A stretch of 64,000 nucleotides of DNA from Nocardioides sp. Root240 (GTDB taxonomy: Bacteria; Actinomycetota; Actinomycetes; Propionibacteriales; Nocardioidaceae): positions 1 to 64,000 of the forward strand of contig NZ_LMIT01000001.1 of NCBI RefSeq assembly GCF_001428825.1, given 5' to 3'. Both the position numbers and the translations under genes were made by a program. This document shows positions 30,451 to 57,213 of the stretch, in pieces; position 1 is the first letter of the stretch, and every line of letters starts with the position of its first letter. The notes beneath the pieces were generated by a model. The model was not told the DNA's origin. It searched no databases and saw nothing but the letters and a program-made list of their open reading frames with translations.

Positions 30451-32618
30451 CGAGGAACCCGCGGCAGGCCGAGGCCGAACATCGAGATCAGCTCGCGCTG
30501 GACCTCCTGGACACCGCCACCGAAGGTGATGACGAGGTTCCGCTTGGCCTGGCCGTCGAGGTAGTCGAGCAGGTCACGGGTCGCCGGGTCACCGGGATCG
30601 CCGTGGCGGTGGACCAGGGAGACCAGGTCGGCGAGCAGGTGCTGGACCTGGTCGGAGGCGAACACCTTGGACGACGACGCGTCGGCCACCTGGAGCTCGC
30701 CCGAGGCCGCGGCGCGCGCGACCTCCCAGTTGAGCAGCTCGTTGATGCGGAAGACCGCGGTGGTCTTGCCGAGCAGGTCGCGGACGTCGGGCTCGTCACG
30801 CACGCCTGCGGCGTCGGCCCACCGGATGACGCGGTCGCGCAGGCCCTCGATCCGGCCGGCCGGGCCGAGCATGACCCGCTCGTGGTTGAGCTGCGTCGTG
30901 ATCAGCTTCCAGCCCTGGTTCTCCTCGCCGACGAGCATGTCGACGGGGACGCGCACGTCGTTGAAGTAGGTCGCGTTGACGTGGTGCGAGCCGTCGGCCG
31001 TGATGATCGGCGTCCAGCTGTAGCCGGGGTCCGAGGTGTCGACGATGAGGATCGAGATCCCCTTGTGCTTCGGGGCGTCGGGATCGGTGCGCACCGCGAG
31101 CCACAGGTAGTCGGCGTGGTGGCCGCCGGTGGTCCACATCTTCTGGCCGTTGACGACGTAGTGGTCGCCGTCCCGCCTGGCCGTCGTCCGCAGCGAGGCG
31201 AGGTCGGTGCCGGCGTCGGGCTCGCTGTAGCCGATGGCGAAGTGCACGTCGCCCTTGAGGATCCGCTCCAGGAACAGGTCCTTCTGCTTCTGCGTGCCGT
31301 AGCGGATCAGGGTCGGGCCGACGGTCTGCAGCGTGACGGACGGCAGGTGCACGTCGGCGTACTGCGCCTCGTTGGCGAAGATCGTCTGCTCGATCTCGCC
31401 GAGTCCGTGGCCGCCGTACTCCTTGGGCCAGCCGACGCCCATCCAGCCGTCGGTGCCGAGCTGCCGGATCAGGCGGGAGTACGTCGGGCCGTGGCGGTCC
31501 CACGCGCCCTCGACCGGGTCGGGGTCGTGCAGGCCCTCGTACTGCGCGGCGACGCCACCGAAGTACGCGCGCAGGCGGTCCTTGAGGTCGCGCTGCTCGG
31601 CGGTGAGCTCGAGGTTCTTGGCGTCCCTGGACTCGACGGGAACCTGTGCGGCCGTCGTGTCGAGCGCGTGGGCGAGGTCGGTGCCCCACGTGGTGAACCC
31701 GACGAGCGGGTAGGTGATGTCGACACCCATGCCGCCGTGGAGGTGGTGGCAGGTGCGGAAGGCGTAGGGCGCGACCTGGCTCGCCCAGTACCCGGCGACC
31801 GCCAGGTCCTCGGCGGCCGGGAGGCCCTCGGCGACCCGCCAGACGGCGTTGTCGGCGGCGAGGTCGAGGGTGCGGGAGGCGACGTAGACGTCGGCCATCT
31901 GCAGCGACACGGCCTGGAACTCGGCAAGCGCACGGCCGAACTGCTGGCGCCCCTTGACGTAGCCGGCGGTCAGGTCGCGTGCACCGCAGAGCACGCCGGC
32001 GGCGGTGACGGCGAGGCCGGCCCGGGCGAGGTCCCGGAGGCGGGCCGCGGCGCCGTCCTCGAGCACCTCGGCGGGCGCCCCATCGAGGACGACGGTGTGC
32101 TGCGGAGCCGCGCTGGACGCGCTCGACGGCAGCAGCTCGACGCCCTCGCCACGCGGGTCGACGAGCACGACGACCTCGCGGTCGCCCTCGGTGGCGACGA
32201 CGAGGAGGCGGTGGGCGGCCTCGACATGGGTCACGGCCAGCTTGCGGCCGGTGACCCGGCTGCCGTCGTACACAGCGTCGCCGCGGAGGGCGGGCGTGAC
32301 GACCAGCTCGCCGGTCGCGATGCCGGGCAGCAGGTCCTTGCGCTGCACCTCGGTGCCGTACGACGCCAGGGTGAGCGCGCCGCAGCAGAGCGTCTCCCAC
32401 GCCGGCACCTGCACCGCGTGGCGGCCGGCCTCGCGGAGCAGCACGGCCACCTCGGTCAGGCCCAGGCCCTCCCCGCCGTGCTCCTCGGGAACGGGGAGCG
32501 CGGTCAGGCCGGCAGCGGCCCAGGCCGCCCACTCACGGGCGTCCGACTCGCGCTCGAGGACCTCGGCGACGACGGCGCGGACTGCCTCGCCCGCCTCATT
32601 GTTTGACTCAGCATCCAC
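30447..32618 (-). CDS. fused acyl-CoA dehydrogenase (FadE28-FadE29-like)
   Basis: 723 residues, twice the usual length: two acyl-CoA dehydrogenase modules in one chain. Module 1 (about 1-335) ends with YVKGRQQFGRALAEFQAVSL and HHLHGGMGVDITYPL; module 2 (about 345-723) has GWMGVGWPKEYGG, GYSEPDAGTDLASLRTTARR and QKMWTTGGHH. In M. tuberculosis the same operon position holds fadE28 and fadE29, whose products form a heterotetramer (ChsE1-ChsE2) that oxidises the three-carbon sterol side chain; here they appear joined. GTG 32618 is chosen: TACAGT lies 7 nt upstream and the KstR box overlaps it. First gene of the igr-like operon. Confidence 0.88.
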   Translation of the reverse strand: MDAESNNEAGEAVRAVVAEVLERESDAREWAAWAAAGLTALPVPEEHGGEGLGLTEVAVLLREAGRHAVQVPAWETLCCGALTLASYGTEVQRKDLLPGIATGELVVTPALRGDAVYDGSRVTGRKLAVTHVEAAHRLLVVATEGDREVVVLVDPRGEGVELLPSSASSAAPQHTVVLDGAPAEVLEDGAAARLRDLARAGLAVTAAGVLCGARDLTAGYVKGRQQFGRALAEFQAVSLQMADVYVASRTLDLAADNAVWRVAEGLPAAEDLAVAGYWASQVAPYAFRTCHHLHGGMGVDITYPLVGFTTWGTDLAHALDTTAAQVPVESRDAKNLELTAEQRDLKDRLRAYFGGVAAQYEGLHDPDPVEGAWDRHGPTYSRLIRQLGTDGWMGVGWPKEYGGHGLGEIEQTIFANEAQYADVHLPSVTLQTVGPTLIRYGTQKQKDLFLERILKGDVHFAIGYSEPDAGTDLASLRTTARRDGDHYVVNGQKMWTTGGHHADYLWLAVRTDPDAPKHKGISILIVDTSDPGYSWTPIITADGSHHVNATYFNDVRVPVDMLVGEENQGWKLITTQLNHERVMLGPAGRIEGLRDRVIRWADAAGVRDEPDVRDLLGKTTAVFRINELLNWEVARAAASGELQVADASSSKVFASDQVQHLLADLVSLVHRHGDPGDPATRDLLDYLDGQAKRNLVITFGGGVQEVQRELISMFGLGLPRVPR

Positions 32619-32625
32619 GATGCAA

Positions 32626-32645
32626 ACTGTAACGTGTTCTAGTCT
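32626..32645. promoter_or_regulatory. KstR operator with two divergent leaderless promoters
   Basis: TGTAACGTGTTCTA (32628-32641) is an exact match to the KstR consensus TNNAACNNGTTNNA. It overlaps two -10 boxes pointing away from each other: TACAGT (minus, 32626-32631, 7 nt before the dehydrogenase GTG) and TAGTCT (plus, 32640-32645, 7 nt before the hydrolase ATG). One bound KstR dimer would block both. Confidence 0.88.
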
Positions 32646-32652
32646 TGAGCGC

Positions 32653-33570
32653 ATGGGGGTCGTCTCACTGGCAGAGGTCGCGCGCAACCGGGTCTACATC
32701 CCGTGGGTGCCGATCCCTCCGGGACGGATGGTCGAGCTGCCCGGACGCGGCGGCGCGACGTACGTGACCGACACGCCGGGGCCGAGCCCCGACTCCCCCA
32801 CCATCGTCCTGCTCCACGCGCTGGGGACGACCGGGCTGCTGACCTGGTTCCCCGCGATCCAGCCCCTGTCGAAGCGGTTCCGCGTCGTCACCCTCGACCA
32901 ACGCTGGCACGGGCAGGGCATCCGCAGCGAGGAGTTCTCGCTCACGGACTGCGCCGACGACGTCGCCGCGCTGATCGACGTGCTCGAACTGCGCGACGTG
33001 GTCGTCGGCGGCTACTCGATGGGGTCGATCGTCGCCCAGCGGGTCTGGCGCCAGCACCCCGACAAGGTCGACGGGCTGGTGCTCGGCGCCACCACCGACC
33101 GCTTCCAGCTCAACGCTGCCGAGCGCGGCTTCTTCCTCGGGATGGGCTCGACCATGCTCGCGCTGCGCGGCGTGTCGCGCTCCCGGACCGCTCTCAAGGC
33201 CGGGCGGCTCGCCGCCCGCGGCGGTCTGGCTCCCTCGGACATGCACGAGTGGGCGCTGCGGGAGTTCCGCTCGACCAGCCCGTGGGCCGTCGGCCAGGCC
33301 CTCGCGGCGCTCGGGCGGCACCACTCGCGACCGTGGATCGGCCGGATCGACGTACCGACGGCGGTGGTGGTGATGATGCGCGACCGGGTCATCCCGACCT
33401 CACGCCAGATCGCGCTGGCGCGCTCGATCCCCGGCGCGACCATCCACGAGGTCGACGACGGGCACGCCGGGTGCGTGCTGGCGTCGGAGAAGTTCGTGCC
33501 GAGGTTCGTCGAGGCCGCCGCGACGGTGAACGCGCGGCGGCGCGACTTCAGGCGGCCGGAGCCGCGCTGA
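32653..33570 (+). CDS. alpha/beta hydrolase under KstR control
   Basis: 305 residues. Oxyanion region VLLHALGTTG, nucleophile elbow GYSMGS (Ser at about residue 120), acid Asp probably in MMRDRVIPTS and His in DDGHAGCVLA. A typical single-domain hydrolase, substrate unknown; steroid-derived esters or meta-cleavage products are plausible because its promoter shares the KstR operator with the igr-like operon. No signal peptide. Ends convergently with the WS/DGAT gene. Confidence 0.87.
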   Translation: MGVVSLAEVARNRVYIPWVPIPPGRMVELPGRGGATYVTDTPGPSPDSPTIVLLHALGTTGLLTWFPAIQPLSKRFRVVTLDQRWHGQGIRSEEFSLTDCADDVAALIDVLELRDVVVGGYSMGSIVAQRVWRQHPDKVDGLVLGATTDRFQLNAAERGFFLGMGSTMLALRGVSRSRTALKAGRLAARGGLAPSDMHEWALREFRSTSPWAVGQALAALGRHHSRPWIGRIDVPTAVVVMMRDRVIPTSRQIALARSIPGATIHEVDDGHAGCVLASEKFVPRFVEAAATVNARRRDFRRPEPR

Positions 33571-33701: not shown

Positions 33702-35111
33702 TCAGCCCAGCGCGTCGACCGCAGCGGTGAGCCGCTCGAGCTCTGCCGGGAAGTGCCGGACGAGCGCGTCGGTGTCGGGCATCGACTCGCGGCAGGCGAT
33801 GGCGCCGACGTGCATCCTGCCGGCGTTCGACATCACCGTGACGTTGAGGCCGGCTCCGTGGAAGACGGGGCCGAGCGGGCACAGCGCCTCGATCCGCGCG
33901 CCCATGAAGTAGAGCGGGATCGGCGGGCCGGGCACGTTGGAGATGACCAGGTTGTGCACCACGGGGTGCCGCTCGGCGAGGCGCAGGTTGGCGTAGGTGC
34001 GGACGGCGAGCCCGAAGGTCCGCGGAGCGGCGAACTCCGCCCAGTCCTGCAGCGCGTCGGCGCTGATCGCGTTGTGGTGCTCCTTGGCGTGCTGGTTGCG
34101 CTCGGCGAGCATCCGCAGTCGATCGAGCGGGTCGCCGATGTCGGTACCGAGCTTCGTGAACAGCGCGGAGACCTTGTTGGCGCCGCTGGAGCGGCGTGAG
34201 CTGTCGCGGACGCTGACCGGGACGGTCGCCAGCAGGGAGGACGTCGGCAGCTCGTCGCGCTCGGCGAGGTAGGCGCGCAGCGCCCCGCCGGCGACGGCGA
34301 GGACGACGTCGTTGACGGTCGTTCCAGTCGCCTTCTTGATGCGGCGGATCTCGTCGAGGTCGAGGTCGGCCATGGCGATCGAGCGGTGCGAGGTGATGGT
34401 GCCGTTGAAGGAGGTGCGCGGCGCGGAGAAGGGTGCGGCCATGGCGGTGCCTTGGCGGGCCCGGCCGATGCTCTTGGTGATCAGCTGGGCCGACGGCTTG
34501 AGGACCTTGACGAGGGTGACCGGGCGGGCCGCCGTACCGATGACGGCGCGACCGAGCAGCTCGCCCCGGCCGGGGTCACGCGGGTGCCGCTGCTCGGTGG
34601 GGACCAAGGGGGCCGCGCCCGGCTCGATGGAGCACAGGTGGGAGATCAGGTTCGCGCCGGAGACCCCATCGACCGTGGCGTGGTGCATCTTGGCGAAGAC
34701 GACGACCTTCTCGGCGTCCTCACCCTCGGGCCGGTAGCCCTCGATGACCCACATCTCCCACAGTGGCCGAGAGCGGTCCAGCGGCAACGAGGCGAGGTGG
34801 GCGCACAGGTCCATCAGCTCGGCGTACCCGCCGGGGGTCGGCAGGGCCAGGCGGTGCACGTGGCGCTCGATGTCGAAGTTGCGGTCGCGGACCCAGACCG
34901 GGTGGTCGAGGCCCAGGGGGACGCCCCGGATCTTGCGGGTGAAGCCCGGGACGTCGTGGACCGACTCACCGATGCGCGCCTGGATCGCGTCGAAGGAGTA
35001 CGGCGACGTCATCGTCTCCGGGTCGAGGACCATGACCGCGCACACGTGCATGAGCTGCGCCGGGGTCTCGAGGTACAGGAAGCTCGCGTCGAGCCCGGAC
35101 AGCCGATCCAT
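33702..35111 (-). CDS. wax ester synthase / diacylglycerol acyltransferase (WS/DGAT)
   Basis: 469 residues starting MDRLSGLDASFLYLETPAQL. The HHxxxDG catalytic motif is present in FAKMHHATVDGVSGANL (about residues 134-140), and the C-terminal family block ISNVPGPPIPLYFMGARIEA is intact. It esterifies acyl-CoA with a fatty alcohol or diacylglycerol to make storage lipid. ATG 35111 has GGGGG 8 nt upstream. A KstR-like site with one core mismatch lies in its promoter region, and a LipC-like hydrolase is divergently placed; the same two families are neighbours in M. tuberculosis (Rv0220-Rv0221, from memory). Confidence 0.93.
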   Translation of the reverse strand: MDRLSGLDASFLYLETPAQLMHVCAVMVLDPETMTSPYSFDAIQARIGESVHDVPGFTRKIRGVPLGLDHPVWVRDRNFDIERHVHRLALPTPGGYAELMDLCAHLASLPLDRSRPLWEMWVIEGYRPEGEDAEKVVVFAKMHHATVDGVSGANLISHLCSIEPGAAPLVPTEQRHPRDPGRGELLGRAVIGTAARPVTLVKVLKPSAQLITKSIGRARQGTAMAAPFSAPRTSFNGTITSHRSIAMADLDLDEIRRIKKATGTTVNDVVLAVAGGALRAYLAERDELPTSSLLATVPVSVRDSSRRSSGANKVSALFTKLGTDIGDPLDRLRMLAERNQHAKEHHNAISADALQDWAEFAAPRTFGLAVRTYANLRLAERHPVVHNLVISNVPGPPIPLYFMGARIEALCPLGPVFHGAGLNVTVMSNAGRMHVGAIACRESMPDTDALVRHFPAELERLTAAVDALG

Positions 35112-35132: not shown

Positions 35133-35146
35133 TAGAACGAGTACCA
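35133..35146. promoter_or_regulatory. degenerate KstR-like site
   Basis: TAGAACGAGTACCA keeps T, AAC, GT and A of the KstR consensus but has A instead of T in the GTT half-site. It lies between the divergent WS/DGAT and LipC-like genes. Weaker than the other sites; regulation by KstR is uncertain. Confidence 0.4.
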
Positions 35147-35178: not shown

Positions 35179-36462
35179 ATGGGATTCGTACGGCGCCAGG
35201 CGATCACCGCAGCGCTGACCGCCAACGCCATCCGGCCCCTGCCCGGCTTCCGCGCCGGCATCCCGGCCTTCTTCGCCGGCTGGATCACCGGTGAGCTGGC
35301 CCCGCACCTGCTCGGCCTCACCGCCGCCGACGCGGCCGCCCACCTGAGCCGGTCTCGACGCGACTGGCGCGGACTCGCGCTCGCCGGGGGCTCGGCCGCC
35401 GGGCTCGCGTACCTGATCGGCCAGAGCCGACAGGCCGTGAAGGATGCCGAGGACGCGCTGGTCGAGGGTCTCGGTGTCGACTACGTCGAGCAGCTCGACG
35501 CCAAGCCCACCCCGGCCGACCTGGCCACGCCGTGGCGGAGCCTCGTCAACCCGTTCGCCTTCGGGCGGGCAGCGCGACGAGCCGGCATCGAGGTCCACCG
35601 CGACATCCGCTACACGTCGTACGGGCGCCGAGGTCTGCTGGACGTCTACACCTCCGAGGTGACCCCTGCATCGGGAGCTCCCGTGCTCCTGCAGGTGCAC
35701 GGCGGCGGCTGGACGATCGGCAACAAGGACCAGCAGGGCCTGCCGCTCATGCAGCACATGGCGGCCAAGGGGTGGATCTGCGTCGCGATCAACTACCGGC
35801 TCGCGCCCCGCGACCCGTGGCCCGCGCAGATCGTCGACGTCAAGGCCGCGATCGCCTGGATCAAGGACAACATCGCGGACTACGGCGGCGATCCCGACTA
35901 CGTCGCCATCACGGGAGGCTCGGCCGGCGGGCACCTGACCGCCCTCGCCGCCACGACGCCCAACGCGCCGGAGTTCCAGCCGGGCTTCGAGTCCGCCGAC
36001 ACCTCGGTCGAGGCGGCTGTGCCCTACTACGGCGTCTACGACTGGGCGGGAGTGTCCGGGCTGCGCTCCGCCGCGCTGATGCGGGACAAGTTCATCGCCC
36101 CCCGGGTGGTCAAGCGGCGCTTCCGCGACGAGCCCGAGGTCTTCGAGCAGGCCTCTCCCCTGCTGCGCGTCACCCCCGACGACCCGGACTTCTTCGTGAT
36201 CCACGGCTCCCGCGACACCCTCGTCGACCCCGGCCAGGCGCGCGCCTTCGTCGCCGCCCTGCGCCAGACCTCCAAGCGCACCGTCGTCTACGCCGAGCTC
36301 CCGGGCGCCCAGCACGCCTTCGACATCTTCCCGTCGATCAGGTCGCAGCACCTGGTCCGGGCCACGGACCGCTTCCTGACCTGGCACTGGAACAACTGGC
36401 GCCGCGAGCGGTTGTCCGCAGGCGCGGCGGACCCGATGGATCCGGCCGCCGACGCGAGGTAG
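35179..36462 (+). CDS. LipC-like alpha/beta-hydrolase (esterase/lipase)
   Basis: 427 residues. N-terminal hydrophobic stretches (about 24-40 and 65-82) may anchor it to the membrane. The hormone-sensitive-lipase signature is clear: HGGGW (about 174-178), GGSAGGH with nucleophile Ser (about 252-258), acid in HGSRDTLVDP and His in GAQHAFD. It resembles mycobacterial LipC. A likely role is hydrolysis of stored or imported lipid esters, including sterol esters, given the WS/DGAT partner; the substrate is inferred. Confidence 0.9.
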   Translation: MGFVRRQAITAALTANAIRPLPGFRAGIPAFFAGWITGELAPHLLGLTAADAAAHLSRSRRDWRGLALAGGSAAGLAYLIGQSRQAVKDAEDALVEGLGVDYVEQLDAKPTPADLATPWRSLVNPFAFGRAARRAGIEVHRDIRYTSYGRRGLLDVYTSEVTPASGAPVLLQVHGGGWTIGNKDQQGLPLMQHMAAKGWICVAINYRLAPRDPWPAQIVDVKAAIAWIKDNIADYGGDPDYVAITGGSAGGHLTALAATTPNAPEFQPGFESADTSVEAAVPYYGVYDWAGVSGLRSAALMRDKFIAPRVVKRRFRDEPEVFEQASPLLRVTPDDPDFFVIHGSRDTLVDPGQARAFVAALRQTSKRTVVYAELPGAQHAFDIFPSIRSQHLVRATDRFLTWHWNNWRRERLSAGAADPMDPAADAR

Positions 36463-36514: not shown

Positions 36515-38560
36515 CTAGCGGGGCAACCCGAGGATCCGCTCGCCCGCGACATTGCGCAGGATCTGCGTCGTCCCGCCCGCGATCGACAGGCAACGGGTGT
36601 TGAGCTGCTCCCACAGGTCCGCCGCCAGCGGTACGTCGGACGCCTTGCCGATCACGTCGAGCAGGGCCAGGTTGTCGCCCTGCAGGCGGACGACCAGCTC
36701 CGAGGAGTCCTGGCGGCTGCGGACACCGAGCAGCTTGGCGACACTCGACTCGGCACCGGGGCCGTGCCCGCCGAGGGCGCGCAGCGTCGTACGGACACCC
36801 AGGAGGGCACAGACGGTGGCGAGGGCGACCTGGTGGCCGACCTGGACCCGGGCGACGGGGCCGACCTCGCCGGCGGCGGCCAGCTCGACGGCCCGCTCGA
36901 CGCTCCTGGTGAGGCGGGCACTGGCCATGGCGACGCGCTCGTTGGCGAGGGTGGTGCGGGCCAGGCGCCAGCCGTCACCGGGCTCGGCGACCACGCACTC
37001 GTCGGGGACGAAGACGTCGTCGAGGAAGACCTCGTTGAAGAGCGCCTCGCCGGTGATCTCGCGCAGCGGGCGGACCTCGATGCCGGACGACCTCATGTCG
37101 ACGAGGAAGTAGGTGATGCCCTTGTGCTGCGGGGCGTCGGGGTCGGTGCGGGCCAGGCAGATACCCCAGTCGGCGCGCTCGGCTACCGAGGTCCACACCT
37201 TCTGGCCGGTCAGCGACCAGCCACCGTCGACCTTGACCGCGCGGGTGCGCAGCGAGGCGAGGTCGGAGCCGGAGCCGGGCTCGGAGAACAGCTGGCACCA
37301 GGTCAGCTCGCCGAGCAGCGAGGGCCGCACGAAGCGCTCGCGCTGCGCGTCGGTGCCGTGCGAGAGGATCGTCGGGACCGCCCAGCCGGCGATCACCAGG
37401 TCCGGCCGTACGACGCCCGCGCGACCGAGCTCCTGGTCGATCACGATCTGCAGCGTGGGGTCGGCGCCGAGTCCGTAGGGCGTCGGCCAGTGCGGCGTGA
37501 GGTAGCCCGCGTCGACGAGGGCGGCGCGCTGCTCCCCCGCCGGCAGCGCGGCGATCCGTTCGGCGGTGGCGCGGGCGTCGGGCCGGACCACCTCGTCGCG
37601 GCCCTCGAGGTCGACGTCGACCTGGCGCCGGACGCCCGCCACGGCGGCGGCGGTCAGTCGCTCGGCCGCGTCGTCGGCCGAGCCGACGAGGGCGCGCAGG
37701 GTGAGCGCCCGGCGGAGGTAGAGGTGGGCGTCGTGCTCGTAGGTGAAGCCGATGCCGCCGAGCACCTGGATGCACGACTTGGCGACCTCGACGGCGCCGT
37801 CGAAGCAGGTCGCCTGGGCGACGTCGACGGCGAAGGCCCACTGCACGTCGTCGCCCTCCCCCTCGTCGAGCGCCGTGGCCGCGGCCGCGGCGTCCCACGC
37901 GGCGGCGGTCACGGACTCGGCGGTCTCGAGCATCTGGGCGCAGAGGTGCTTGATCGCCTGGAAGGCGCCGATCCTCTGGCCGAACTGCTCGCGCACCTTG
38001 GCGTAGTCGACGGCGGTCTCGAGGCACCAGCGGGCGACGCCGGCCGCCTCGGCGGCGGCGAGCGTCACGGCCAGCAGGCGCCGACGCTCGTCGCCAGTGT
38101 CGCCGTTGCCGCCGTTGCCGCCGGCGACCGACGCATGCCGGCTGCCGAGGTCGACGCCGAGGGCGACGGCCAGCGGGCCCTCGTCGAGGAGCAGCTGCTC
38201 GTCGGCCGTACCGCCGTCCCAGACGACGCCGCCGGGGCGCACCTGCACGCCGTACCGGCCCGGGCGTCCGGTGAGCGTCGCCCCGATCGCGGCGCCGAGC
38301 AGTCCGCCCGGCACCAGCTCCCGGGCGCAGGCCTCGAGCGCGACCGCCTGGTCGAGCACCGTGCCACCCCCACCGCCGGCGGACTCCGGGACCGCGATGG
38401 CCGCGATGCCCATCTCCTCGGCGGCGGACCAGACCGCAGCGAAGTCCGCGGCGACGTCGCCCTCGGCCGCGCGCGCGGCCTCCAGCGGACCGAGGCTCGC
38501 GGCCCACTTGCGCAGGCTGTCGGCGAGCTCGACCTGCTCGTCGGTGATGCCGATCGACAT
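36515..38560 (-). CDS. fadE34: fused acyl-CoA dehydrogenase, FadE34/ChsE3-like
   Basis: 681 residues with two acyl-CoA dehydrogenase modules: module 1 (about 1-315) contains KVREQFGQRIGAFQAIKHL and VLGGIGFTYEHDAHLYL; module 2 (about 340-681) contains LFSEPGSGSDLASLRTRA, QKVWTSVAERADWG and the C-terminal IAGGTTQILRNVAGERILGL. M. tuberculosis FadE34 (ChsE3) is a single chain of this type that oxidises the five-carbon sterol side chain. ATG 38560 is chosen for its homologous start; the longer frame runs through a repeat. An exact KstR operator lies 58 nt upstream, and repeat D fills the presumed 5' UTR. Confidence 0.85.
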   Translation of the reverse strand: MSIGITDEQVELADSLRKWAASLGPLEAARAAEGDVAADFAAVWSAAEEMGIAAIAVPESAGGGGGTVLDQAVALEACARELVPGGLLGAAIGATLTGRPGRYGVQVRPGGVVWDGGTADEQLLLDEGPLAVALGVDLGSRHASVAGGNGGNGDTGDERRRLLAVTLAAAEAAGVARWCLETAVDYAKVREQFGQRIGAFQAIKHLCAQMLETAESVTAAAWDAAAAATALDEGEGDDVQWAFAVDVAQATCFDGAVEVAKSCIQVLGGIGFTYEHDAHLYLRRALTLRALVGSADDAAERLTAAAVAGVRRQVDVDLEGRDEVVRPDARATAERIAALPAGEQRAALVDAGYLTPHWPTPYGLGADPTLQIVIDQELGRAGVVRPDLVIAGWAVPTILSHGTDAQRERFVRPSLLGELTWCQLFSEPGSGSDLASLRTRAVKVDGGWSLTGQKVWTSVAERADWGICLARTDPDAPQHKGITYFLVDMRSSGIEVRPLREITGEALFNEVFLDDVFVPDECVVAEPGDGWRLARTTLANERVAMASARLTRSVERAVELAAAGEVGPVARVQVGHQVALATVCALLGVRTTLRALGGHGPGAESSVAKLLGVRSRQDSSELVVRLQGDNLALLDVIGKASDVPLAADLWEQLNTRCLSIAGGTTQILRNVAGERILGLPR

Positions 38561-38617: not shown

Positions 38618-38631
38618 TAGAACGCGTTCTA
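38618..38631. promoter_or_regulatory. KstR operator, fully palindromic
   Basis: TAGAACGCGTTCTA, an exact and perfectly symmetrical match to TNNAACNNGTTNNA. It lies between the fadE34-like gene (minus) and a methyltransferase (plus), touching the presumed minus-strand -10 TAGTTT and lying 8 nt before the plus-strand -10 TAGAGT (38639-38644). Confidence 0.9.
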
Positions 38632-39325: not shown

Positions 39326-39516
39326 CCCCACGAACCGTGCCAAGTGGCACCACGAACCGTCGATGATGGCTCTCCGAGCCGTTGCTCGTGGCACCACGAC
39401 CAGTCAGTGATGGTGCAGCGAACCTGGCGTCACGTGACACGGTTCGTCGTGCCACGAGGCACGGTTCGTCGTGCCACGAGGCACGGTTCGTGGTGCCACG
39501 AGGCACGGTTCGTGGT
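39326..39516. repeat. repeat B array: direct and inverted copies between convergent genes
   Basis: About 190 nt between two convergent stops. The right half has a 22-nt unit, GCACGGTTCGTCGTGCCACG plus AG, in tandem at 39437, 39459 and 39481, with a partial fourth at 39503 that runs into the stop of the prenyltransferase-like gene. The left half has inverted cores CCACGAACCGTGCC (39328-39341) and CCACGAACCGT (39350-39360) and a decayed one near 39385. GTGCC and GGCAC of neighbouring units can pair. There are no spacers, so this is not a CRISPR array. Confidence 0.9.
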
Positions 39517-45801: not shown

Positions 45802-45802
45802 C

Positions 45803-47634: not shown

Positions 47635-47642
47635 CGTCTTCC

Positions 47643-49525: not shown

Positions 49526-50862
49526 GCTGTCGCTCCCAGCAGCTGCTTCGTCGTTCCGCCACCCGTGGACCCGGACGGGGCGAGCCCACCGGTCAGCCCG
49601 GACAGCAGCCCGTTGGGACCGAGCAGGCCGCCGTTCAGCAGCTGGCTCAGGTCGAGGTTCGGCAGCGAGTTGAGCAGCTTGCAGACCGGGCTGCCCTTCA
49701 GCGCGACCTTCTTGCAGTCGGCCTTCATCTGCTTGAGCAGGTCGAGGTCGCTGAGCACCCTGGCGCAGGCCGTGCTGGTCAGGCTGCCGCTCTTGAGGCA
49801 GCGACCGACCTGGTCCAGCACCTGACCGAGGTCGGGCAGCTGGATGGCCGGCAGGCCCAAGGTGTGGAACAGGTTCGTGAGGTCGATGTCGACGCGGGCG
49901 ATGGTGTCGGCGTAGTCGCCCTGGACGATGTCGTTGGCCGACTGGGGGAAGGGGAAGCTCACCAGCAGGTTGAGCCCCGGTGCCAGCTGCTCGTCGGCCT
50001 GACGGAGGCGGCGCAGGATCGGGCTCAGGTCCTCCAGGATCGCGAGCACGTCCTCCTTGCTCGCGTTGATCACCCTCGTGCCGACCTTGCCGAGCCGGTC
50101 GAGTGCGCCGAGCATGTCGATCAGCTCGTCGTGCTGGGCCGAGAGGACCTCGATCGCCGGGCCCGTCGCGTCGAGCGCGTCGCTGATCGTCTGCTTCTCG
50201 GAGTTCAGCGTGGAGGTCAGGTTGTTGAGCGACTCGAGGGCGTTGATGATCTGGACCTTCTGCTGGTCCACGGTGCCCACGACCGAGTCGAGCGAGGACA
50301 GCAGGTTGCGCAGCCGGTCCTCCCGACCGGACATCACCTGGTTGGCCTCGCGGGTGATGGTGCCGAGCTGGGCCACGCCGCCGCCGCTGAGCAGGAAGGA
50401 CAGTGCGCCGAGCACCTCCTCGACCTCGGGGTTGCGCCCGGTCTTGGCGAGGTCGATCGTGTCGCCCTCGGCCAGCCGACCCGTCGGCGCCTCCTCCTTC
50501 GGCGCCTCCAGGGCGACGTACTTCTCGCCGAGGAGCGACACCTGACGGATGTCCGCGATCGCGTTGTCGGGCAGCTCGACGTCCTTGCGGATCAGCAGCT
50601 TGACCTTGGCGTTCCAGCCGGAACGCTCCACCTCGGACACCTCGCCGACGGTGACGTCGTCGACCATCACCGGCGAGCGCGGCACGACGTTGAGGACGTC
50701 CTTGAAGTAGACCGTGATCTCGAAGGCGTCGTCCGCGTCGACCTCGTGGCCGGGCAGCGGCAGGTCATAGGCGCCGTCGAAGCTGCTGCAGCCCGTCAGG
50801 ACGGCGAGCCCCAGCAGTCCCGCCAGAGCGGAACGCCAGCTGCGGATCGATCGGGTCATCAC
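49522..50862 (-). CDS. mce4E: Mce4E-like lipoprotein
   Basis: 446 residues. The signal sequence ends in a lipobox, LAVLTGCSS, so Cys is lipidated; the fifth mce gene is a lipoprotein in other mce operons too. MCE domain about 45-125 (ITVYFKDVLNVVPRSPVMVD), helical region about 150-310 and a Gly-rich C-terminus (GGGTTKQLLGA). GTG 50862 overlaps the mce4D stop as GTGA; ATG 50859 is an equal alternative one codon later. Confidence 0.9.
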   Translation of the reverse strand: MMTRSIRSWRSALAGLLGLAVLTGCSSFDGAYDLPLPGHEVDADDAFEITVYFKDVLNVVPRSPVMVDDVTVGEVSEVERSGWNAKVKLLIRKDVELPDNAIADIRQVSLLGEKYVALEAPKEEAPTGRLAEGDTIDLAKTGRNPEVEEVLGALSFLLSGGGVAQLGTITREANQVMSGREDRLRNLLSSLDSVVGTVDQQKVQIINALESLNNLTSTLNSEKQTISDALDATGPAIEVLSAQHDELIDMLGALDRLGKVGTRVINASKEDVLAILEDLSPILRRLRQADEQLAPGLNLLVSFPFPQSANDIVQGDYADTIARVDIDLTNLFHTLGLPAIQLPDLGQVLDQVGRCLKSGSLTSTACARVLSDLDLLKQMKADCKKVALKGSPVCKLLNSLPNLDLSQLLNGGLLGPNGLLSGLTGGLAPSGSTGGGTTKQLLGATA

Positions 50863-52112
50863 GAGCCACCTCCGAGCAGGGTCGCCATGGAGACACCGTC
50901 TCCGCTCATGTACGACACCGGCATCGCACCGGGAAGCTGGATCCCTCGGCTCGTGTCGGCCCCTGCCTGCTTGGCCTTGGGCAGGTACGACTTGTACTCC
51001 GGCGGGAGCCAGGGAAGCTTGGTGAGCACCGGCTCGAGCACCTTCTCGACGAGGGCGCACGCGGTGTCCTTGAGGGCCGGCGGCATCGCGGGGTTCTGCT
51101 GGATGACGGCACAGATGAACCCGTCGGCGTCCCACACGTAGCCACCGATGCCGATCCTGCTGTTCTGCGAGTCGCTCACGTGGTCGAAGCCGGCCTGCAG
51201 GTTGGCCATCGCGGTCGGCGCGGCGCGCATCGCCCGGGCCAGGCTGTCCTTCTCGGAGACGATCGTGTTCATCACGTCGGTGAGCTTGCGGACGTCGGTC
51301 ACGAACGCGTCGCGGTTCTTGGTCACGAAGCCCTTCACGCTGCCGACGGCCTGGGCCACGGAGGCCACGGCCCGCTCGAGCTCGTCGCTCTCCTCGGCCA
51401 GCATCCCCGACACCCCGGCCAGGTCCTTCATGAAGGCCCGGACCAGCTTGTCGTTCTTCGCGAGGGTGTCGGTGAACTCGGCGAGCTGGGTCACGGTCTC
51501 GAACAGCGGCCCCGCGCCGTTGCCGAAGGTCTCGGCGGCGTCGGCGAGGTCGTGGATCATCTGGTTGCCCTGGGCCCCCTGGCCGTCGAAGGCCTTCTCC
51601 CCCGCCTCGAGCAGGTGGTCGAGGGTGCCGTCCTTGTTCACGCCGTTCGGGCCGAGGGCCCGGGTCAGCGTCTGGAGGCTGTTGTAGATCCGGTCCAGCT
51701 CGACCGGCACGCCGGTCTGCTGGAGCGCGATGTCCGCTCCGTCGGCCATTGCCTTGTCGCCGTCACCGAAGACCGGGGTCAGCTGGACGAAGCGGTCCGC
51801 GACGAGCGTCGGGGTCACGATGACCGCCTGGGCGTCGGCGGGGATCTGGTACTGCGCGTCGTACTCCATCTCGACGCGCACCGAGTTGCCCTCGGGGATC
51901 ACGGCGGTCACCTTGCCGACGTTGACGCCGAGCACGCGCACGTCGGTGCCCTCGTAGACACTGACAGCGCGCGGGAAGTGCGCGGTCACGGTCTTGATCT
52001 CGGCCGGCGAGCGGAGCAGGTTGACCGTCACGGCGACGAGCAGGAGCACGGCGAGGCCGGCCAGCACGCGGCGTTCGATGCGCTTGAGGATCGTGGTCAC
52101 CATCGTCATCAC
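50859..52112 (-). CDS. mce4D: Mce4D-like substrate-binding protein
   Basis: 417 residues from GTG 52112 (GTGA overlap with mce4C). Transmembrane anchor at about 16-35 (LAGLAVLLLVAVTVNLL), MCE domain about 42-120 (VTAHFPRAVSVYEGTDVRVL and GVNVGKVTAV), helical region about 140-300, and a C-terminal extension about 315-417. No enzymatic residues. Fourth Mce chain. Confidence 0.9.
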   Translation of the reverse strand: MMTMVTTILKRIERRVLAGLAVLLLVAVTVNLLRSPAEIKTVTAHFPRAVSVYEGTDVRVLGVNVGKVTAVIPEGNSVRVEMEYDAQYQIPADAQAVIVTPTLVADRFVQLTPVFGDGDKAMADGADIALQQTGVPVELDRIYNSLQTLTRALGPNGVNKDGTLDHLLEAGEKAFDGQGAQGNQMIHDLADAAETFGNGAGPLFETVTQLAEFTDTLAKNDKLVRAFMKDLAGVSGMLAEESDELERAVASVAQAVGSVKGFVTKNRDAFVTDVRKLTDVMNTIVSEKDSLARAMRAAPTAMANLQAGFDHVSDSQNSRIGIGGYVWDADGFICAVIQQNPAMPPALKDTACALVEKVLEPVLTKLPWLPPEYKSYLPKAKQAGADTSRGIQLPGAMPVSYMSGDGVSMATLLGGGS

Positions 52113-53089
52113 TCCACGAACCCGGGTACGAACTCGCCGGTCGGCAGGGCCAGCAGGTTGGACGCGTAGGCGTCGAACCACGGGCCGGTGCCGACGATGT
52201 TGCCGAGGATGTCGACGTAGGGGCCGAGCGCCGCGAGCGTCTCCTTGAGCTTCTTCTTCTTCGAGACGAGGAAGCTGACGAGTCCGTCGACCTCCTTGAG
52301 GGCCGGGCCGATCTGCTTCTCGTTGTCCTTGACCAGGCCTCGGAGCTCGACGGCGAGGCTGCGGGCGTTGACCAGCAGGTCGTGCACGGCGGCCTTGCGC
52401 TTGGTCAGCTCCTGGAAGACGAGGTCGCTGTTCTTCATCAGGCCCACGATGTCGCCGCTGCGGTCGGCCAGGACCTTGCTGACGTCCTTCGAGCTGTCGA
52501 GCAGCGTCTGCAGCTCCTCGTCGCGGGAGGCCACGCTCCGCGAGAGACGGGCGATGCCGTCGAACGAGGCCTGGATCTCGGGCGCGGAGACGTCGAGGGT
52601 GTCGGCCACCGTGTCCAGCGCCTTCGAGAGCTGCTCGGTGTCGATCTTCTCGGTCGTGGAGGCCAGGTCGCCGAACACGCCCACGATGTCGTACGCCGAC
52701 TCCGTCCGCTCGAGCGGGATGGTCCCACCCGCCGCCAGCTGGCCACTGCCGCCCGGCTGGACGTCGAGGAACTTCTCGCCGAGCAGGTTCAGCACCTCGA
52801 TCGAGGCCGCACTGTCCTTGCCGAACTCGACGTCGCCGTCGAGCTCGAACTTGACCTTCACCCGGTCGCCGGCGAGGGCCACCTGGGTGACGCGGCCGAC
52901 CCGGATGCCGCCCACCTGGACGATGTTGCCCTTGTGGATGCCGCTGGCGTCGCTGAACTCGGCGTAGTAGGTCGTCCCGCGGAAACCGGGGAACTTGCCG
53001 AGGTTGAAGGTGGCCGCGGAGATCACGGCCATCAGCACGAGGGTGATCGTGCCGAGCCGGAGGATGCGGGCCTCGCTCGTGTTCGCCAT
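52109..53089 (-). CDS. mce4C: Mce4C-like substrate-binding protein
   Basis: 326 residues, the shortest of the six. Transmembrane anchor about 11-28 (LGTITLVLMAVISAATF), MCE domain about 37-115 (YYAEFSDASGIHKGNIVQVG, GIRVGRVTQV), then a helical region to about 310. The short C-terminus is a real feature: no Pro-rich tail as in some Mce4C. ATG 53089 shares one base with the mce4B stop (TGATG). The long open frame that continues upstream is a shadow over mce4B. Confidence 0.9.
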   Translation of the reverse strand: MANTSEARILRLGTITLVLMAVISAATFNLGKFPGFRGTTYYAEFSDASGIHKGNIVQVGGIRVGRVTQVALAGDRVKVKFELDGDVEFGKDSAASIEVLNLLGEKFLDVQPGGSGQLAAGGTIPLERTESAYDIVGVFGDLASTTEKIDTEQLSKALDTVADTLDVSAPEIQASFDGIARLSRSVASRDEELQTLLDSSKDVSKVLADRSGDIVGLMKNSDLVFQELTKRKAAVHDLLVNARSLAVELRGLVKDNEKQIGPALKEVDGLVSFLVSKKKKLKETLAALGPYVDILGNIVGTGPWFDAYASNLLALPTGEFVPGFVE

Positions 53090-54192
53090 CAGTGGTCCTG
53101 GCACCGGGGAGCGGTGGACTTGAACGAGAAGTTCTCGATGTACTTGGTGATCTGCTTCAGCAGCGCCTGCTCGCCGATGATGGGCAGCTTGATCGTGGCC
53201 GAGACCCCACAGATGTAGTACTGGTACCAGGAGCCGTAGGTCCCGGTTCGAGTCTGGTCGTCCATGGTCTCCGGCATCCGGTCGAGCAGCTGACCGAGGT
53301 TCTTGCGGTTCTCCGGCCGGTTGAGCAGCTTCGCGAGGTCGCGCAGCGCGGCGATGTCCTCCTTGAGGAGCGGCCGGCCGCGACGGAGCAGGTCGGCCAC
53401 CGTCACGGTGAGCTGCGAGATGTTGTCGAGGGAGGAGCCGATCGTGTCCCGGTCCCTGGCGAGGTCGGTCATCCAGTCCTTGAGCTCGACGACGAGGGAG
53501 CTGAGCTGCTCGTGGCGGTCGTCGACGGTCTTCAGCGTGGTGCTGAGGTTGCCGATGACCTCGCCGATCAGCTGGTCGCGGTTGGCCAGCGAGGTCGTCA
53601 GGGACGCGGTGTGGGCCAGCAGGCTCTTGACCGTGCCGCCCTCGCCCTGGAGCACCTGGACCAGGTTCATGCTCAGCTCGTTGACCTGGTCGGGCGTGAG
53701 CGCCGCGAACAGCGGCTTGAAGCCGTCGAAGAGGACGGTCAGGTCGAGCGCCGGCTTGGTGTTGCCGACCGGGATGGTCGCACCGTCGGCGAGCGCCTTC
53801 GCACCGTCGGCGCCGGAGCCCTCCTCGAGCGCCAGGTAGCGGTCCCCGACGAGGTTGAGGAAGCGGATCTCGGCCCGCGAGGCGGTGGTCATCTCGACCC
53901 CCGCGTCGACCTTGAAGGTCACCTTCGCCATCGAGCGCTGGTAGTGCTCGACCTTCTTGACCTCGCCGACGTTGACGCCGGCGACCCGGACGTCGTCGCC
54001 CTTCTCGAGCATCGTGGCGTTGGTGAAGATCGCCTGGTACTCGTTGCGCTCGCCGAAGCCGACGTTGCCCATGATCACGACGAGCACGCCGGTGACCAGG
54101 ATCGAGACGGCCGTGAAGATGCCGAGCTTGATCGCAGCCGCGGTGGTGACCGCGTTGCGGCGGTTGAGCAGGTGGCCCGCGTTGTCGCTCAT
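53089..54192 (-). CDS. mce4B: Mce4B-like substrate-binding protein
   Basis: 367 residues. Transmembrane anchor about 20-42 (IKLGIFTAVSILVTGVLVVI), MCE domain about 50-130 (YQAIFTNATMLEKGDDVRVA, GVNVGEVKKV), helical region about 150-310, C-terminus with two Cys (YYICGVSATIK and APRCQDH). ATG 54192 overlaps the mce4A stop. Second Mce chain. Confidence 0.9.
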   Translation of the reverse strand: MSDNAGHLLNRRNAVTTAAAIKLGIFTAVSILVTGVLVVIMGNVGFGERNEYQAIFTNATMLEKGDDVRVAGVNVGEVKKVEHYQRSMAKVTFKVDAGVEMTTASRAEIRFLNLVGDRYLALEEGSGADGAKALADGATIPVGNTKPALDLTVLFDGFKPLFAALTPDQVNELSMNLVQVLQGEGGTVKSLLAHTASLTTSLANRDQLIGEVIGNLSTTLKTVDDRHEQLSSLVVELKDWMTDLARDRDTIGSSLDNISQLTVTVADLLRRGRPLLKEDIAALRDLAKLLNRPENRKNLGQLLDRMPETMDDQTRTGTYGSWYQYYICGVSATIKLPIIGEQALLKQITKYIENFSFKSTAPRCQDH

Positions 54193-55508
54193 CCGGCAGC
54201 CCTCCCCTCACGCACGACCGGGCCGTAGAGCAGCGTGCCCAGGGAGCCGTACGACGCCGGGTCGTGCCCGCTCTTGTCGGCGAGGATCGCGTTGACCACC
54301 TTCTGCTCGGGGGCGCTGCCGGCGTACCCGCTGTTGATGCCGATCGGGTTCGGGTTCTCCAGCCCGGGGATCGGGAACGGCAGGTAGCCGCCCTTCTCGT
54401 CGAGGTCGGTGCCCTGGTCGAGCGGCACCGGCGGCGCCGGCACGGTGAACTTCGGCAGGCCCAGGCACCACGGTCCGTGTCCGACCTCGCCGTAGGTCGG
54501 CAGGTCGCGCTCGTCGAAGGCGCGGAACTGCGGCGAGCCGAGCTCGATCTTCTGCCTGACCCAGTTGCCCTCGAAGGTCTTGGAGAGGATCGGCTCGTAG
54601 TTGGCCGCACCGCGAATCAGGCACGGGAACTCCGGCGAGTAGTCCGCGAGCAGCCCGATGACGGGCTCGGTCACCTCGCCCATCCGGATCAGGTTCTGCT
54701 CGTTGGTCGCCAGCAGGCGGGTCGACGTCTTCGCGAGGCCGGTGAGGTCGGAGAAGAAGACGTCGAGGTCCTCGGACTTCTGCGTGATCGTCTTGCTGGT
54801 GACCGTGACGTTGTCGAGGACGTCGAGCAGGTCGGGCGCCGCGACGTCGTAGGCGTCGGCGACGTCGGCCAGCGCGATCAGGTCCTCCTTGAGCGTGGGC
54901 AGCGAGTCGTCGATGGCGCCGATGTACTGGCCGAGCTGGTCCATCGTCTCGCCGAGCTCGTTGCCGCGACCCTCGAGCGCGGTGGCCACGGCGCTCAGGG
55001 TCATGTTGAGGTCGGCCGGGCGCACCGCGCGCAGCAGCGGGAACAGGTCGGCGAGCACCTGGCTCAGCTCGACGTTGGTCTCGACCCGGTCGGACGGGAT
55101 GACGTCACCGTCGCGGAGCTCGCCGGAGGCACCCGTCTCGGGGCGGACAAGGGCCACGAACTTCTGGCCGAAGAGGGTGGTCGGCAGGATCTGGACGGTC
55201 ACGTTGGCCGGGATCTTCTTCGCGGCATCCGGCTCGAGGTCGAGGGTGATCGAGGCCTGCTTGCCGTCCTGGTCGATCTTCGCGACGCGGCCGACGAGGA
55301 CGCCGTTGATGCGGACGTCGCCGAACTTGGCGAGCTGCAGGCCCGCTCGGTCGGCCTTGACCGTGATCGTCGTGGTGCTGTCGAAGGCCTTGTTGTAGAT
55401 CGAGACCGACAGCCACACGAGCAGGGCGATGGCGGTCAGGAAGCCGATGCCGGCGACCAGGAGCCGGTTGTGCTCCCGGGCGCTGTCGTGGTGGATGTTG
55501 ACGAGCAT
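54189..55508 (-). CDS. mce4A: Mce4A-like substrate-binding protein
   Basis: 439 residues. Transmembrane anchor about 17-37 (LVAGIGFLTAIALLVWLSV), MCE domain about 45-125 (ITVKADRAGLQLAKFGDVRI, NGVLVGRVAKI), helical region about 150-290, and a long C-terminal domain with Pro-rich segments (FTVPAPPVPLDQGTDLDE). First Mce chain, 15 nt after yrbE4B. Confidence 0.9.
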   Translation of the reverse strand: MLVNIHHDSAREHNRLLVAGIGFLTAIALLVWLSVSIYNKAFDSTTTITVKADRAGLQLAKFGDVRINGVLVGRVAKIDQDGKQASITLDLEPDAAKKIPANVTVQILPTTLFGQKFVALVRPETGASGELRDGDVIPSDRVETNVELSQVLADLFPLLRAVRPADLNMTLSAVATALEGRGNELGETMDQLGQYIGAIDDSLPTLKEDLIALADVADAYDVAAPDLLDVLDNVTVTSKTITQKSEDLDVFFSDLTGLAKTSTRLLATNEQNLIRMGEVTEPVIGLLADYSPEFPCLIRGAANYEPILSKTFEGNWVRQKIELGSPQFRAFDERDLPTYGEVGHGPWCLGLPKFTVPAPPVPLDQGTDLDEKGGYLPFPIPGLENPNPIGINSGYAGSAPEQKVVNAILADKSGHDPASYGSLGTLLYGPVVREGRAAG

Positions 55509-55523
55509 CAGCCGATCACCCCC

Positions 55524-56363
55524 TCATCCCGTGATCCGGACGGTGGTGGTCGAGCCCCAGATGGCGAAGCTCAGGAAGAAGTCCGCGACCACGATGGTCA
55601 CGATGCTGGTCCGGATCGCCTTGCCGACCGCGCGGCCCACGCCCGCCGGTCCCCCGGAGGCGGTGTAGCCGTAGTAGCAGTGGATGAGGATCACCGCGAC
55701 GGCCAGGAAGAGCAGCTTGAAGAACGACCAGATCATGTCGATCGGCGGCAGGAACTGCAGGAAGTAGTGGTCGTAGGTGCCACCGGACTGGCCGTAGATG
55801 TAGACCACGATCAGCCGCGGCGAGAGGTACGACGCGCACAGCGCCACGATGTAGAGCGGGATGACGGCGACGAAGGCGGCGATCATCCGGGTGGTCACCA
55901 GGAAGGGCAGGGACGGGATGCCCATCACCTCGAGCGCGTCGATCTCCTCCGAGATCCGCATCGCGCCGAGGCGGGCGGTGTAGCCGCAGCCCACCGTCGC
56001 GGCGAGCGCGATCGACGAGACCAGCGGAGCCACCTCGCGGGTGTTGAAGTACGCCGAGATGAACGCGCTGAACTTCGCGACGCCGATCTGGCTGAGCGAG
56101 GCGTAGCCCTGGATGCCGACCTCGGTGCCGGCGAAGAAGGCCATGAACGCGATGACGCCGACCGAGCCGAGGATCAGGCTCAGGCCGCCCGCGCCGAAGG
56201 CGACCTCGGCGAGGGTGTTGCTGATCTCGCGGGGGTAGCGGCGGATCGCGCGGGGCGCCCAGGCGAGGGCCTTGGCGTAGAAGAGCAGCTGGTCGCCGTA
56301 CCCCTCGAGGGTGGAGCGCCCGCTCTTGTAGGCATCGCCCGCCACCTGGCCCACGACCGCCAT
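55524..56363 (-). CDS. yrbE4B: YrbE4B-like permease (MlaE family)
   Basis: 279 residues with six or so hydrophobic segments and the MlaE signature: TARLGAMRISEEIDALEVMG (EQ-loop that contacts the ATPase) at about 130-149. ABC permease half of the Mce4 importer. The ATPase (MceG/Mkl) is normally encoded elsewhere and is not in the window. TGATG-type overlap with yrbE4A. Confidence 0.93.
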   Translation of the reverse strand: MAVVGQVAGDAYKSGRSTLEGYGDQLLFYAKALAWAPRAIRRYPREISNTLAEVAFGAGGLSLILGSVGVIAFMAFFAGTEVGIQGYASLSQIGVAKFSAFISAYFNTREVAPLVSSIALAATVGCGYTARLGAMRISEEIDALEVMGIPSLPFLVTTRMIAAFVAVIPLYIVALCASYLSPRLIVVYIYGQSGGTYDHYFLQFLPPIDMIWSFFKLLFLAVAVILIHCYYGYTASGGPAGVGRAVGKAIRTSIVTIVVADFFLSFAIWGSTTTVRITG

Positions 56364-57136
56364 CAGAGGCCCACCGGCGGAGCGACCTGGAAGTAGATGG
56401 CCGTGATGACGGCGTTCAGGAAGAACAGCGCCATGAAGGCGATGATGACCGACTCGTTGACCGCGCGGCCCACACCGCTCGGGCCGCCGCCGGCGTTGAG
56501 GCCCTTGTAGGCACCGATGATCGCGGCGAGCCAGCCGAAGATGAGCGCCTTGACCATCGCGATGTAGAGGTCGGGCAGCGAGGCGAGTGCGGTGAACGAG
56601 GAGAGGAAGGCGCCGGCGGAGCCGCCCTGGACGATCACCGTGAAGAAGTAGCCGCCACCGATGCCGGTGCCGATCACGATGCCGTTGATCATCAGCGCGA
56701 CGAACATGGTCGCGACCACCCGGGGGGCGACGAGTCGCTCGAGCGGGTCGATGCCGAGGACCTCCATGGCATCGATCTCCTCACGGATCTTGCGCGCCCC
56801 GAGGTCGGAGCAGATCGCCGACCCTGCGGCCCCGGCGATGATCATCGCGGCCGCCATGGGAGCCGCCTCACGGACCGTCGCGAGCACGGCCGTCGCGCCG
56901 GCGAAGGACTGGGCGCCGAGCTGGCCGGTCAGGTTGCCGACCTGCAGCGAGATCACTGCGCCGAACGGGATCGAGACCATGATCGTCGGCATCAGCGTGA
57001 CGCTGGTGACGAACCAGGCCTGCTCGAGGAACTCCCGGAACTGGAAGGGGCGGGTGAAGATCCGCTTGGTGACCTCGACCACCATCAACGCGATCTCACC
57101 GGGGCCGCGCACGACCGATACGGCGTTGAACGCCAC
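56363..57136 (-). CDS. yrbE4A: YrbE4A-like permease (MlaE family)
   Basis: 257 residues from GTG 57136, with AGGAG 8 nt upstream. Contains FLEQAWFVTSVTLMPTIMVS and the EQ-loop DLGARKIREEIDAMEVLGID (about 113-132). Forms the permease pair with YrbE4B. First gene of the mce4-type operon, about 60 nt from a near-perfect KstR site; TACTAT (57196-57201) is the likely -10, leaving a leader of about 53 nt. The open frame up to 57394 is non-coding leader. Confidence 0.92.
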   Translation of the reverse strand: MAFNAVSVVRGPGEIALMVVEVTKRIFTRPFQFREFLEQAWFVTSVTLMPTIMVSIPFGAVISLQVGNLTGQLGAQSFAGATAVLATVREAAPMAAAMIIAGAAGSAICSDLGARKIREEIDAMEVLGIDPLERLVAPRVVATMFVALMINGIVIGTGIGGGYFFTVIVQGGSAGAFLSSFTALASLPDLYIAMVKALIFGWLAAIIGAYKGLNAGGGPSGVGRAVNESVIIAFMALFFLNAVITAIYFQVAPPVGL

Positions 57137-57195
57137 GCCCCGACTCCTCTCCCCGACTCCCCCATGGACCAGGCCCCCGGAGGAGCCGACGCGCC

Positions 57196-57213
57196 ATAGT
57201 AGAACACGTTCTC
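57196..57213 (-). promoter_or_regulatory. KstR operator and -10 of the mce4-type operon
   Basis: TAGAACACGTTCTC (57200-57213) matches the KstR consensus except for the last base (C for A). On the minus strand the -10 TACTAT (57196-57201) partly overlaps it. Sterol uptake would therefore be derepressed together with the catabolic genes. Confidence 0.82.

Follow-up and report, generated by a model that had tools for sequence, protein, structure and literature searches.

Positions 32618–57213 of the window, by which we mean the whole 64,000-nucleotide stretch of contig NZ_LMIT01000001.1 of Nocardioides sp. Root240, very probably represent the Nocardioides "cluster B" of the regulon of KstR, a TetR-family repressor, with genes for sterol import and sterol side-chain breakdown placed under predicted KstR control as part of a genome-wide regulon. 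The proposal is based on the observed gene content, operators, their positions and their conservation, from which KstR binding and repression, the ligand, leaderless transcription and sterol import by the mce products are predicted.

Exact matches to the motif TNNAACNNGTTNNA were found at four places in the window (Table 1), compared with a mean of 0.04 in 100 dinucleotide shuffles, which confirmed the four operators named in an earlier reading of this DNA (the original prediction). When one mismatch was allowed, 10 matches were found, including the four exact ones, against a shuffle mean of 2.47. The two one-mismatch sites that had also been proposed, at 35133 and 57200, scored like true operators on a KstR matrix that was built from 37 exact sites and did not include them, and no position of a 408-kb reversed-sequence control reached a score of 16. 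The remaining matches at 7501, 29583 and 44809 (scores below 8) and 49865 (10.1) were rejected as operators and are probably chance matches, because their matrix scores were at most 10.1. All six window operators sit at gene starts, as judged from gene calls with a codon model, and stand, as predicted, ahead of the igr-like operon, a fused acyl-CoA dehydrogenase gene, kstR itself, the redox/hsd4A operon and the mce operon. The genome (5.13 Mb in 16 contigs) contained 47 exact TNNAACNNGTTNNA sites, whereas the reversed pattern had 10 matches; of the 47, 38 were at gene starts (four of them in the window) on 10 contigs, and nine were within genes. A matrix scan of the genome had been suggested with the original prediction; the scan reported here used the exact pattern, and the surroundings of all 43 exact sites outside the window were examined.

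The TetR-family gene at 42834–43445 is, judging from its predicted product, kstR. The best four of its five matches in the PDB had E values of 4.7e-56 to 1.7e-55, three of them being named KstR and the fourth (3mnl) a TetR-family protein only; the fifth was a different TetR protein (E 3.5e-23). The published KstR2 motif AnCAAGnnCTTGnT (PMC3068626) had no exact match in the genome (two in the control; near matches were not searched), and the CAAGNNCTTG core was absent from the window and from the stretches of contig C2 that were examined. For N. simplex, 29 KstR2 operons have been predicted. The helix-turn-helix (HTH) region of the window protein, through "GTLYRYFPSK", is almost unchanged in the alignment with 5ua2, and together with the match to that structure this bears out the presence of a KstR-like repressor gene.

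Igr-type operons combine an acyl-CoA dehydrogenase pair, ChsH1/ChsH2, Ltp2 and cyp125. The igr-like operon of Root240, read on the minus strand, encodes in order a fused dehydrogenase, a hydratase domain, a zinc-ribbon/OB protein, a second MaoC hydratase and an Ltp2-type lyase; the dehydrogenase pair (as a fusion), the ChsH1/ChsH2 hydratase (with ChsH2 split) and the lyase thus occur in one operon, and cyp125 is not among its genes, CYP125 being encoded on contig C2 opposite a FadA5-type gene. Residues 14–324 of the fused dehydrogenase resemble chain A of 6wy8 (Tcur3481) and residues 339–721 resemble chain B (Tcur3483) and 4x28; we take the two halves to be comparable to FadE28 and FadE29. A fused acyl-CoA dehydrogenase had been predicted for the segment, and the fusion at 36515–38560 stands; the count does not, because the first igr-like gene is itself a fusion and the segment therefore contains two. 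The gene at 36515–38560 is taken as FadE34/ChsE3 by analogy, from its position and from the N. simplex cluster. All six Mce proteins passed the TIGR00996 cutoff, and both YrbE matches were under the TIGR00056 cutoff. Two YrbE and six Mce proteins encoded in one operon make up the mce4-type gene set, and from its operator and position we infer that this operon encodes the mce4 sterol importer; its two further genes are taken as Mce-associated by position. In the redox operon, the short-chain dehydrogenase/reductase (SDR) at 44220–45125 passed the NF005862 cutoff (453.2 vs. 414), and the PPOX-class protein was under the TIGR03618 cutoff (64.0 vs. 79.05). The name hsd4A rests on analogy with the N. 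simplex cluster.

KstR orthologs were found in 42 of 59 genomes of the genus (E 4.2e-52 or better), the best E value among the other 17 being 1.7e-10. The number of TNNAACNNGTTNNA-type sites per genome had a median of 40 (range 9–59) in the 42 genomes with KstR and of 12 (5–18) in the 17 without it, with reversed-pattern control medians of 6.5 and 6, respectively. The order of the genes and the individual operators also recur within the genus. An operator was found between the hydrolase gene and the igr-like operon in all 54 relatives compared, between lipQ and the WS/DGAT gene in 45 of 49, between the methyltransferase gene and fadE34 in all 30 relatives having both neighbors, and in the space separating kstR from the GT4 gene at five of five loci. 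Upstream of kstR, a site scoring at least 14 was present in 29 of 30 loci of the genus, many with one mismatch to the pattern, and the remaining locus had a site scoring 13.5. The igr-like dehydrogenase was preceded by an operator in 69 of the 78 loci with sufficient upstream sequence. As a control for all these positions, 78 stretches within ltp2 were scored, and none had an operator. Among the best 80 of 583 matches, the closest relatives of this dehydrogenase were in Nocardioides and Pimelobacter loci, and the copy of Pimelobacter simplex ATCC 6946 was 84% identical. We take P. simplex and N. simplex to be one species.

Promoter geometry was analyzed for the 49 genes whose start lies no more than 80 bp from an exact operator. 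Three sites (L002 and the plus-strand genes of L007 and L009) were excluded; the starts at these genes are probably miscalled, because the operator overlaps the called start codon by 7 bases. In 18 of the 49 genes (the tight class) the operator ends 9–11 nt short of the start codon, and each of the 18 has a TANNNT sequence that begins within the operator and ends 6–7 nt before the start codon, the operator supplying the TA, mostly as its last two bases. The operators predicted to overlap −10-like boxes were thus observed, and the operator at 32628 has TANNNT on both flanks, 7 nt from either start codon. TANNNT was found 5–8 nt before the start in 25 of the 49 operator genes vs. 32 of 152 operator-free genes whose upstream gap exceeded 40 bp (Fisher p = 9e-5); it was found in 11 of 37 operator-free genes with gaps of 16–40 bp and in 3 of 112 with gaps up to 15 bp. 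The excess is thus due to the tight class, in which the TA comes from the operator itself; neither the T at the sixth position nor the fixed spacing follows from the operator in this way. This geometry, which is possibly new, suggests that the tight-class genes may have leaderless promoters. Operator-to-start distances clustered near 10–11, 21–23 and 55–59 bp; given that the signal is weak without the first peak (largest Rayleigh value 5.29, with five periods tried and uncorrected), no helical phasing is claimed.

We propose that KstR would recognize a 14-bp palindrome, at six positions within the window and over 30 in the rest of the genome, and that in the absence of sterols it would block RNA polymerase. 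At tight-class promoters, with the start codon 6–7 nt after a TANNNT −10 box and transcription probably leaderless, polymerase and KstR would compete for the same bases, because the operator supplies the TA of the box. A sterol side-chain acid or its CoA ester, as reported for mycobacteria, would then bind KstR and release repression, freeing the mce operon, the side-chain operons and kstR together with ring-degradation operons on contig C2.

Several observations weigh against this account. The window KstR scored below the NCBIfam equivalog cutoff of NF033703 (259.5 vs. 280 bits), which we read as the probable mark of a diverged KstR ortholog. Five of the 42 genomes with KstR hold only 9–16 sites, within the range of the genomes lacking it, and in nine more distant loci (L110–L118) the 150 bp upstream of the igr-like dehydrogenase gene contain no operator, although these loci have operators at other places. 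Outside the tight class, TANNNT occurs in 7 of 31 genes, which equals background, so that the whole excess comes from the 18 tight cases. Even at the igr-like operon the tight layout is not fixed across relatives: 31 of 69 keep the operator, yet their first in-frame start lies 30–46 bp after it, and TANNNT is found 5–7 nt before the first in-frame start in only 23 of the 69. In addition, only 27 of the 71 N. simplex operons with predicted KstR sites are reported to have risen on phytosterol (PMC7807495, PMC7593942), and some of the sites found here may therefore be inactive.

Outside the window, one exact operator lies 33 bp before cofGH, which encodes FO synthase (C13:596240; L033:4241-6834) and was identified with NF006687 (1474.6 bits; cutoff 1018). 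No divergent gene of this genome can own the operator, because the preceding gene runs in the same direction and stops short of the operator. An operator near the cofGH start was also found in 7 of 46 upstream stretches of other genomes of the genus; not counted was a stretch scoring 14.2 at 353 bp upstream of cofGH, which recurred at 11.9 in four other genomes. Nine named relatives were compared as well; three of them repeat genomes of the 46-stretch set, and of the six further ones two (N. albidus and Nocardioides sp. Root682) have the operator and four, including P. simplex, do not. The occurrence of a KstR operator before the FO synthase gene here and in some relatives, and not in others, is possibly new. 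No report of KstR control of FO synthase was found among the titles, opening lines of abstracts and selected passages of papers on KstR, F420, steroids and cholesterol regulons.

Patchiness of this kind (the operator being present at 7 of the 46 copies from other genomes and in 2 of the 6 additional genomes, and absent from P. simplex ATCC 6946 and from G014, a close relative) would be expected if the site were a chance match or a functionless relic, and we regard that explanation as having a substantial chance of being correct, if somewhat short of even. Its position speaks for function: in 8 of the 10 sequences, including that of Root240 and five of the seven stretches above, the operator lies 31–36 bp before the protein match, with inner bases that vary, and of the other two, at 50 and 66 bp, the 50-bp case has an ATG 32 bp after the operator. 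We put forward, tentatively and as a minority expectation, that in a Nocardioides subclade KstR controls F420 supply through the operator 31–36 bp before cofGH, which would couple cofactor synthesis to several luciferase-family and F420-type oxidoreductases of the regulon, and that sterol breakdown there is F420-dependent. A cofGH gene (best copy, at least 78% identity) was found in 37 of 42 genomes with KstR vs. 2 of 17 without it, a comparison not corrected for kinship; in G041 cofGH is present only as fragments and in G039 as two pieces. Five of 27 luciferase-family genes are first or apparently second behind an operator (C2:539353, C11:67590, C12:58369, C10:410728 and C4:218), for which the estimated enrichment is indicative only, as it assumed that the regulon makes up 1.2–3% of genes; these proteins may use FMN instead of F420. 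One of four F420H2-quinone-reductase-type genes is behind a KstR operator. In M. tuberculosis, Rv3520c is reported to tie F420 to cholesterol breakdown (PMC12855090). If the proposal for cofGH is true, a catabolic repressor has been recruited to control a cofactor pathway, and F420-dependent steps in sterol breakdown are predicted.

The original prediction had described the segment as a dedicated import and side-chain module without ring-cleavage, kstD, ksh or cyp125 genes. None of these was found among the window genes annotated at 27985–59333, the span covered by family annotation, and the predicted import and side-chain genes are present; the published "cluster B" is likewise described as comprising KstR-regulon genes of side-chain β-oxidation (PMC7593942). 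A module regulated and inherited as a unit apart from ring degradation is nevertheless unlikely, and a fully self-contained one was rejected, because contig C2 contains ring genes and further side-chain genes with the same operator type. There, one operator serves the divergent genes for KstD and an HsaE-type hydratase, 33 bp apart (L006), and others are found by CYP125 and a steroid 3-ketoacyl-CoA thiolase of the FadA5 type (L007), by the EchA19 hydratase and an acyl-CoA synthetase (L008) and by KshA (L009). A one-mismatch site at C2:496173 precedes an operon of HsaA-, HsaD- and HsaC-like genes and a fourth gene, possibly hsaB, with a 218-aa product, and contig C2 also has the sole match of the genome to the HsaC-type family TIGR03213. 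The same operator thus stands before side-chain, transport and ring genes, and the window simply stops short of the other cluster; that ring genes are missing reflects where the window ends and the published split of Nocardioides genes into clusters A and B. Besides import and side-chain genes, the segment includes genes for a lipase-like protein and a WS/DGAT, as well as a glycosyltransferase/methyltransferase operon. Its composition is not constant either, as L048–L051 and L076 have the second SDR gene and kstR directly before fadE34, with WS/DGAT and alpha/beta hydrolase genes not detected.

Binding of the palindromes mainly by another TetR protein is very improbable: the genome has other such proteins, the nearest KstR-like one being 33% identical (C15:383341), and one operator adjoins another TetR gene (L027:3895-4470), but the kstR product has an HTH nearly identical to that of the solved KstR chain 5ua2, M. 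tuberculosis KstR is reported to bind the TNNAACNNGTTNNA motif (PMC1995591), site number tracks KstR presence across the 59 genomes, and 29 of 30 loci have an operator ahead of kstR.

The features of the segment are listed in Table 1. The GT4/methyltransferase operon opposite kstR is common among the Nocardioides loci and was also seen in Saccharopolyspora (L108).

Table 1. Predicted genes and KstR operators of the igr-like to mce segment (positions in the window).
Feature	Position	Strand	Match or remark
ltp2-type thiolase/aldol lyase	27985–29157	−	Above the cutoff of NF005892, "lipid-transfer protein" (708.4 vs. 469 bits); closest PDB entry 6ok1, "Lipid-transfer protein", E 7.9e-180
chsH1-like MaoC hydratase	29154–29543	−	PF01575, residues 178–278 of a longer open reading frame; gene call
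Separate zinc-ribbon/OB protein, like the ChsH2 C-terminal half	29540–29929	−	PF01796 and PF12172, both named for ChsH2
chsH2-like hydratase domain	29926–30450	−	4w78 and 4wnb (hydratase ChsH1 and ChsH2), E about 1e-43
Fused acyl-CoA dehydrogenase of igr-like operon, 723 aa	30447–32618	−	Two-chain match to 6wy8
KstR operator TGTAACGTGTTCTA	32628–32641		Exact; common to divergent igr-like operon (−) and alpha/beta hydrolase (+)
alpha/beta hydrolase	32653–33570	+	PF00561
WS/DGAT acyltransferase	33702–35111	−	TIGR02946, 490.1 bits (cutoff 309.95), scored on a longer open reading frame
KstR operator, one mismatch	35133–35146		Between WS/DGAT gene (−) and lipQ-like esterase (+); score 20.8
LipQ-like esterase	35179–36462	+	NF052354, 340.2 bits, under cutoff 700; PF20434
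FadE34-like fused acyl-CoA dehydrogenase, 681 aa from predicted start	36515–38560	−	Two-domain acyl-CoA dehydrogenase
KstR operator TAGAACGCGTTCTA	38618–38631		Exact; between FadE34-like fused dehydrogenase (−) and methyltransferase (+)
Methyltransferase (Methyltransf_24)	38651–39325	+	PF13578, 68.6 bits
Three-gene operon: GT4 glycosyltransferase, methyltransferase, protein without Pfam match	39516–42682	−	
KstR operator	42739–42752		Exact; between GT4 glycosyltransferase operon (−) and kstR (+)
kstR, predicted repressor	42834–43445	+	NF033703, 259.5 bits (cutoff 280); 5ua2 KstR, E 4.7e-56
Redox operon: Pyr_redox flavoprotein, PPOX-class protein, 4Fe-4S ferredoxin, hsd4A-like SDR, second SDR	43447–46783	−	
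KstR operator	46805–46818		Exact; in front of redox/hsd4A operon
mce operon: two yrbE, six mce, two further genes	46816–57136	−	Starts from gene calls
KstR operator, one mismatch	57200–57213		Upstream of mce operon; score 23.9

Further operators were observed at genes of other kinds. One lies between the genes for a potassium/proton antiporter (48 bp) and an FAD-binding protein (10 bp) (L025:2528-5599; G000 C10), and a link between cholesterol and potassium is reported for M. tuberculosis (PMC12136442, PMC10843139). Another is 23 bp ahead of the predicted TTG start of an endoglycoceramidase-like GH5 gene (L020:4329-5780). A choline-dehydrogenase-like oxidoreductase gene and a pyridoxal kinase gene have one operator in common (L036:3359-6006), and the genes for a sigma-70-like protein with a BACON domain and a SnoaL-like protein diverge across one operator (L027:12388-14632).

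Among known systems, M. tuberculosis has separate igr-type dehydrogenases and a fused ChsH2, whereas in Root240 the dehydrogenases are fused and ChsH2 is split. The KstR regulon of M. tuberculosis and M. smegmatis, controlled by a related repressor, is reported to share the motif, the autoregulation and the large set of lipid genes (PMC1995591), and the operators of mycobacterial kstR and fadE34 are described as partly overlapping the −10 region (PMC1995591). Many M. tuberculosis targets are reported to lie in one large region, Rv3492c-Rv3574 (PMC1995591), in contrast to the at least two clusters and scattered genes of Root240. The divergent hsaE/kstD pair with KstR boxes at kstD3-hsaE of Rhodococcus ruber resembles the KstD/HsaE-type pair on contig C2, except that a tandem of two operators is described there and one operator was found here; R. 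ruber kstD3 has also been proposed to be leaderless (PMC5348764).

Nocardioides sp. Root240 provides another instance of the cluster published for N. simplex. Cluster B of N. simplex VKM Ac-2033D (KR76_12190-12345) is reported to share with the Root240 segment the predicted KstR sites, mce genes, hsd4A, a second SDR gene and chsE3/fadE34, and likewise to hold chsE2, chsH2, casN, chsH1 and ltp2 in one cluster, with kshA, kstD3 and cyp125 in a separate cluster A (PMC7807495, PMC7593942). The Root240 segment differs in belonging to another species, and the operator that Root240 has at cofGH is missing in P. simplex ATCC 6946. A well-known sterol regulon is thereby placed in another Nocardioides species, its apparent "module" being largely a border effect, and the FO synthase operator and the possibly leaderless promoter geometry are the parts that merit further attention.

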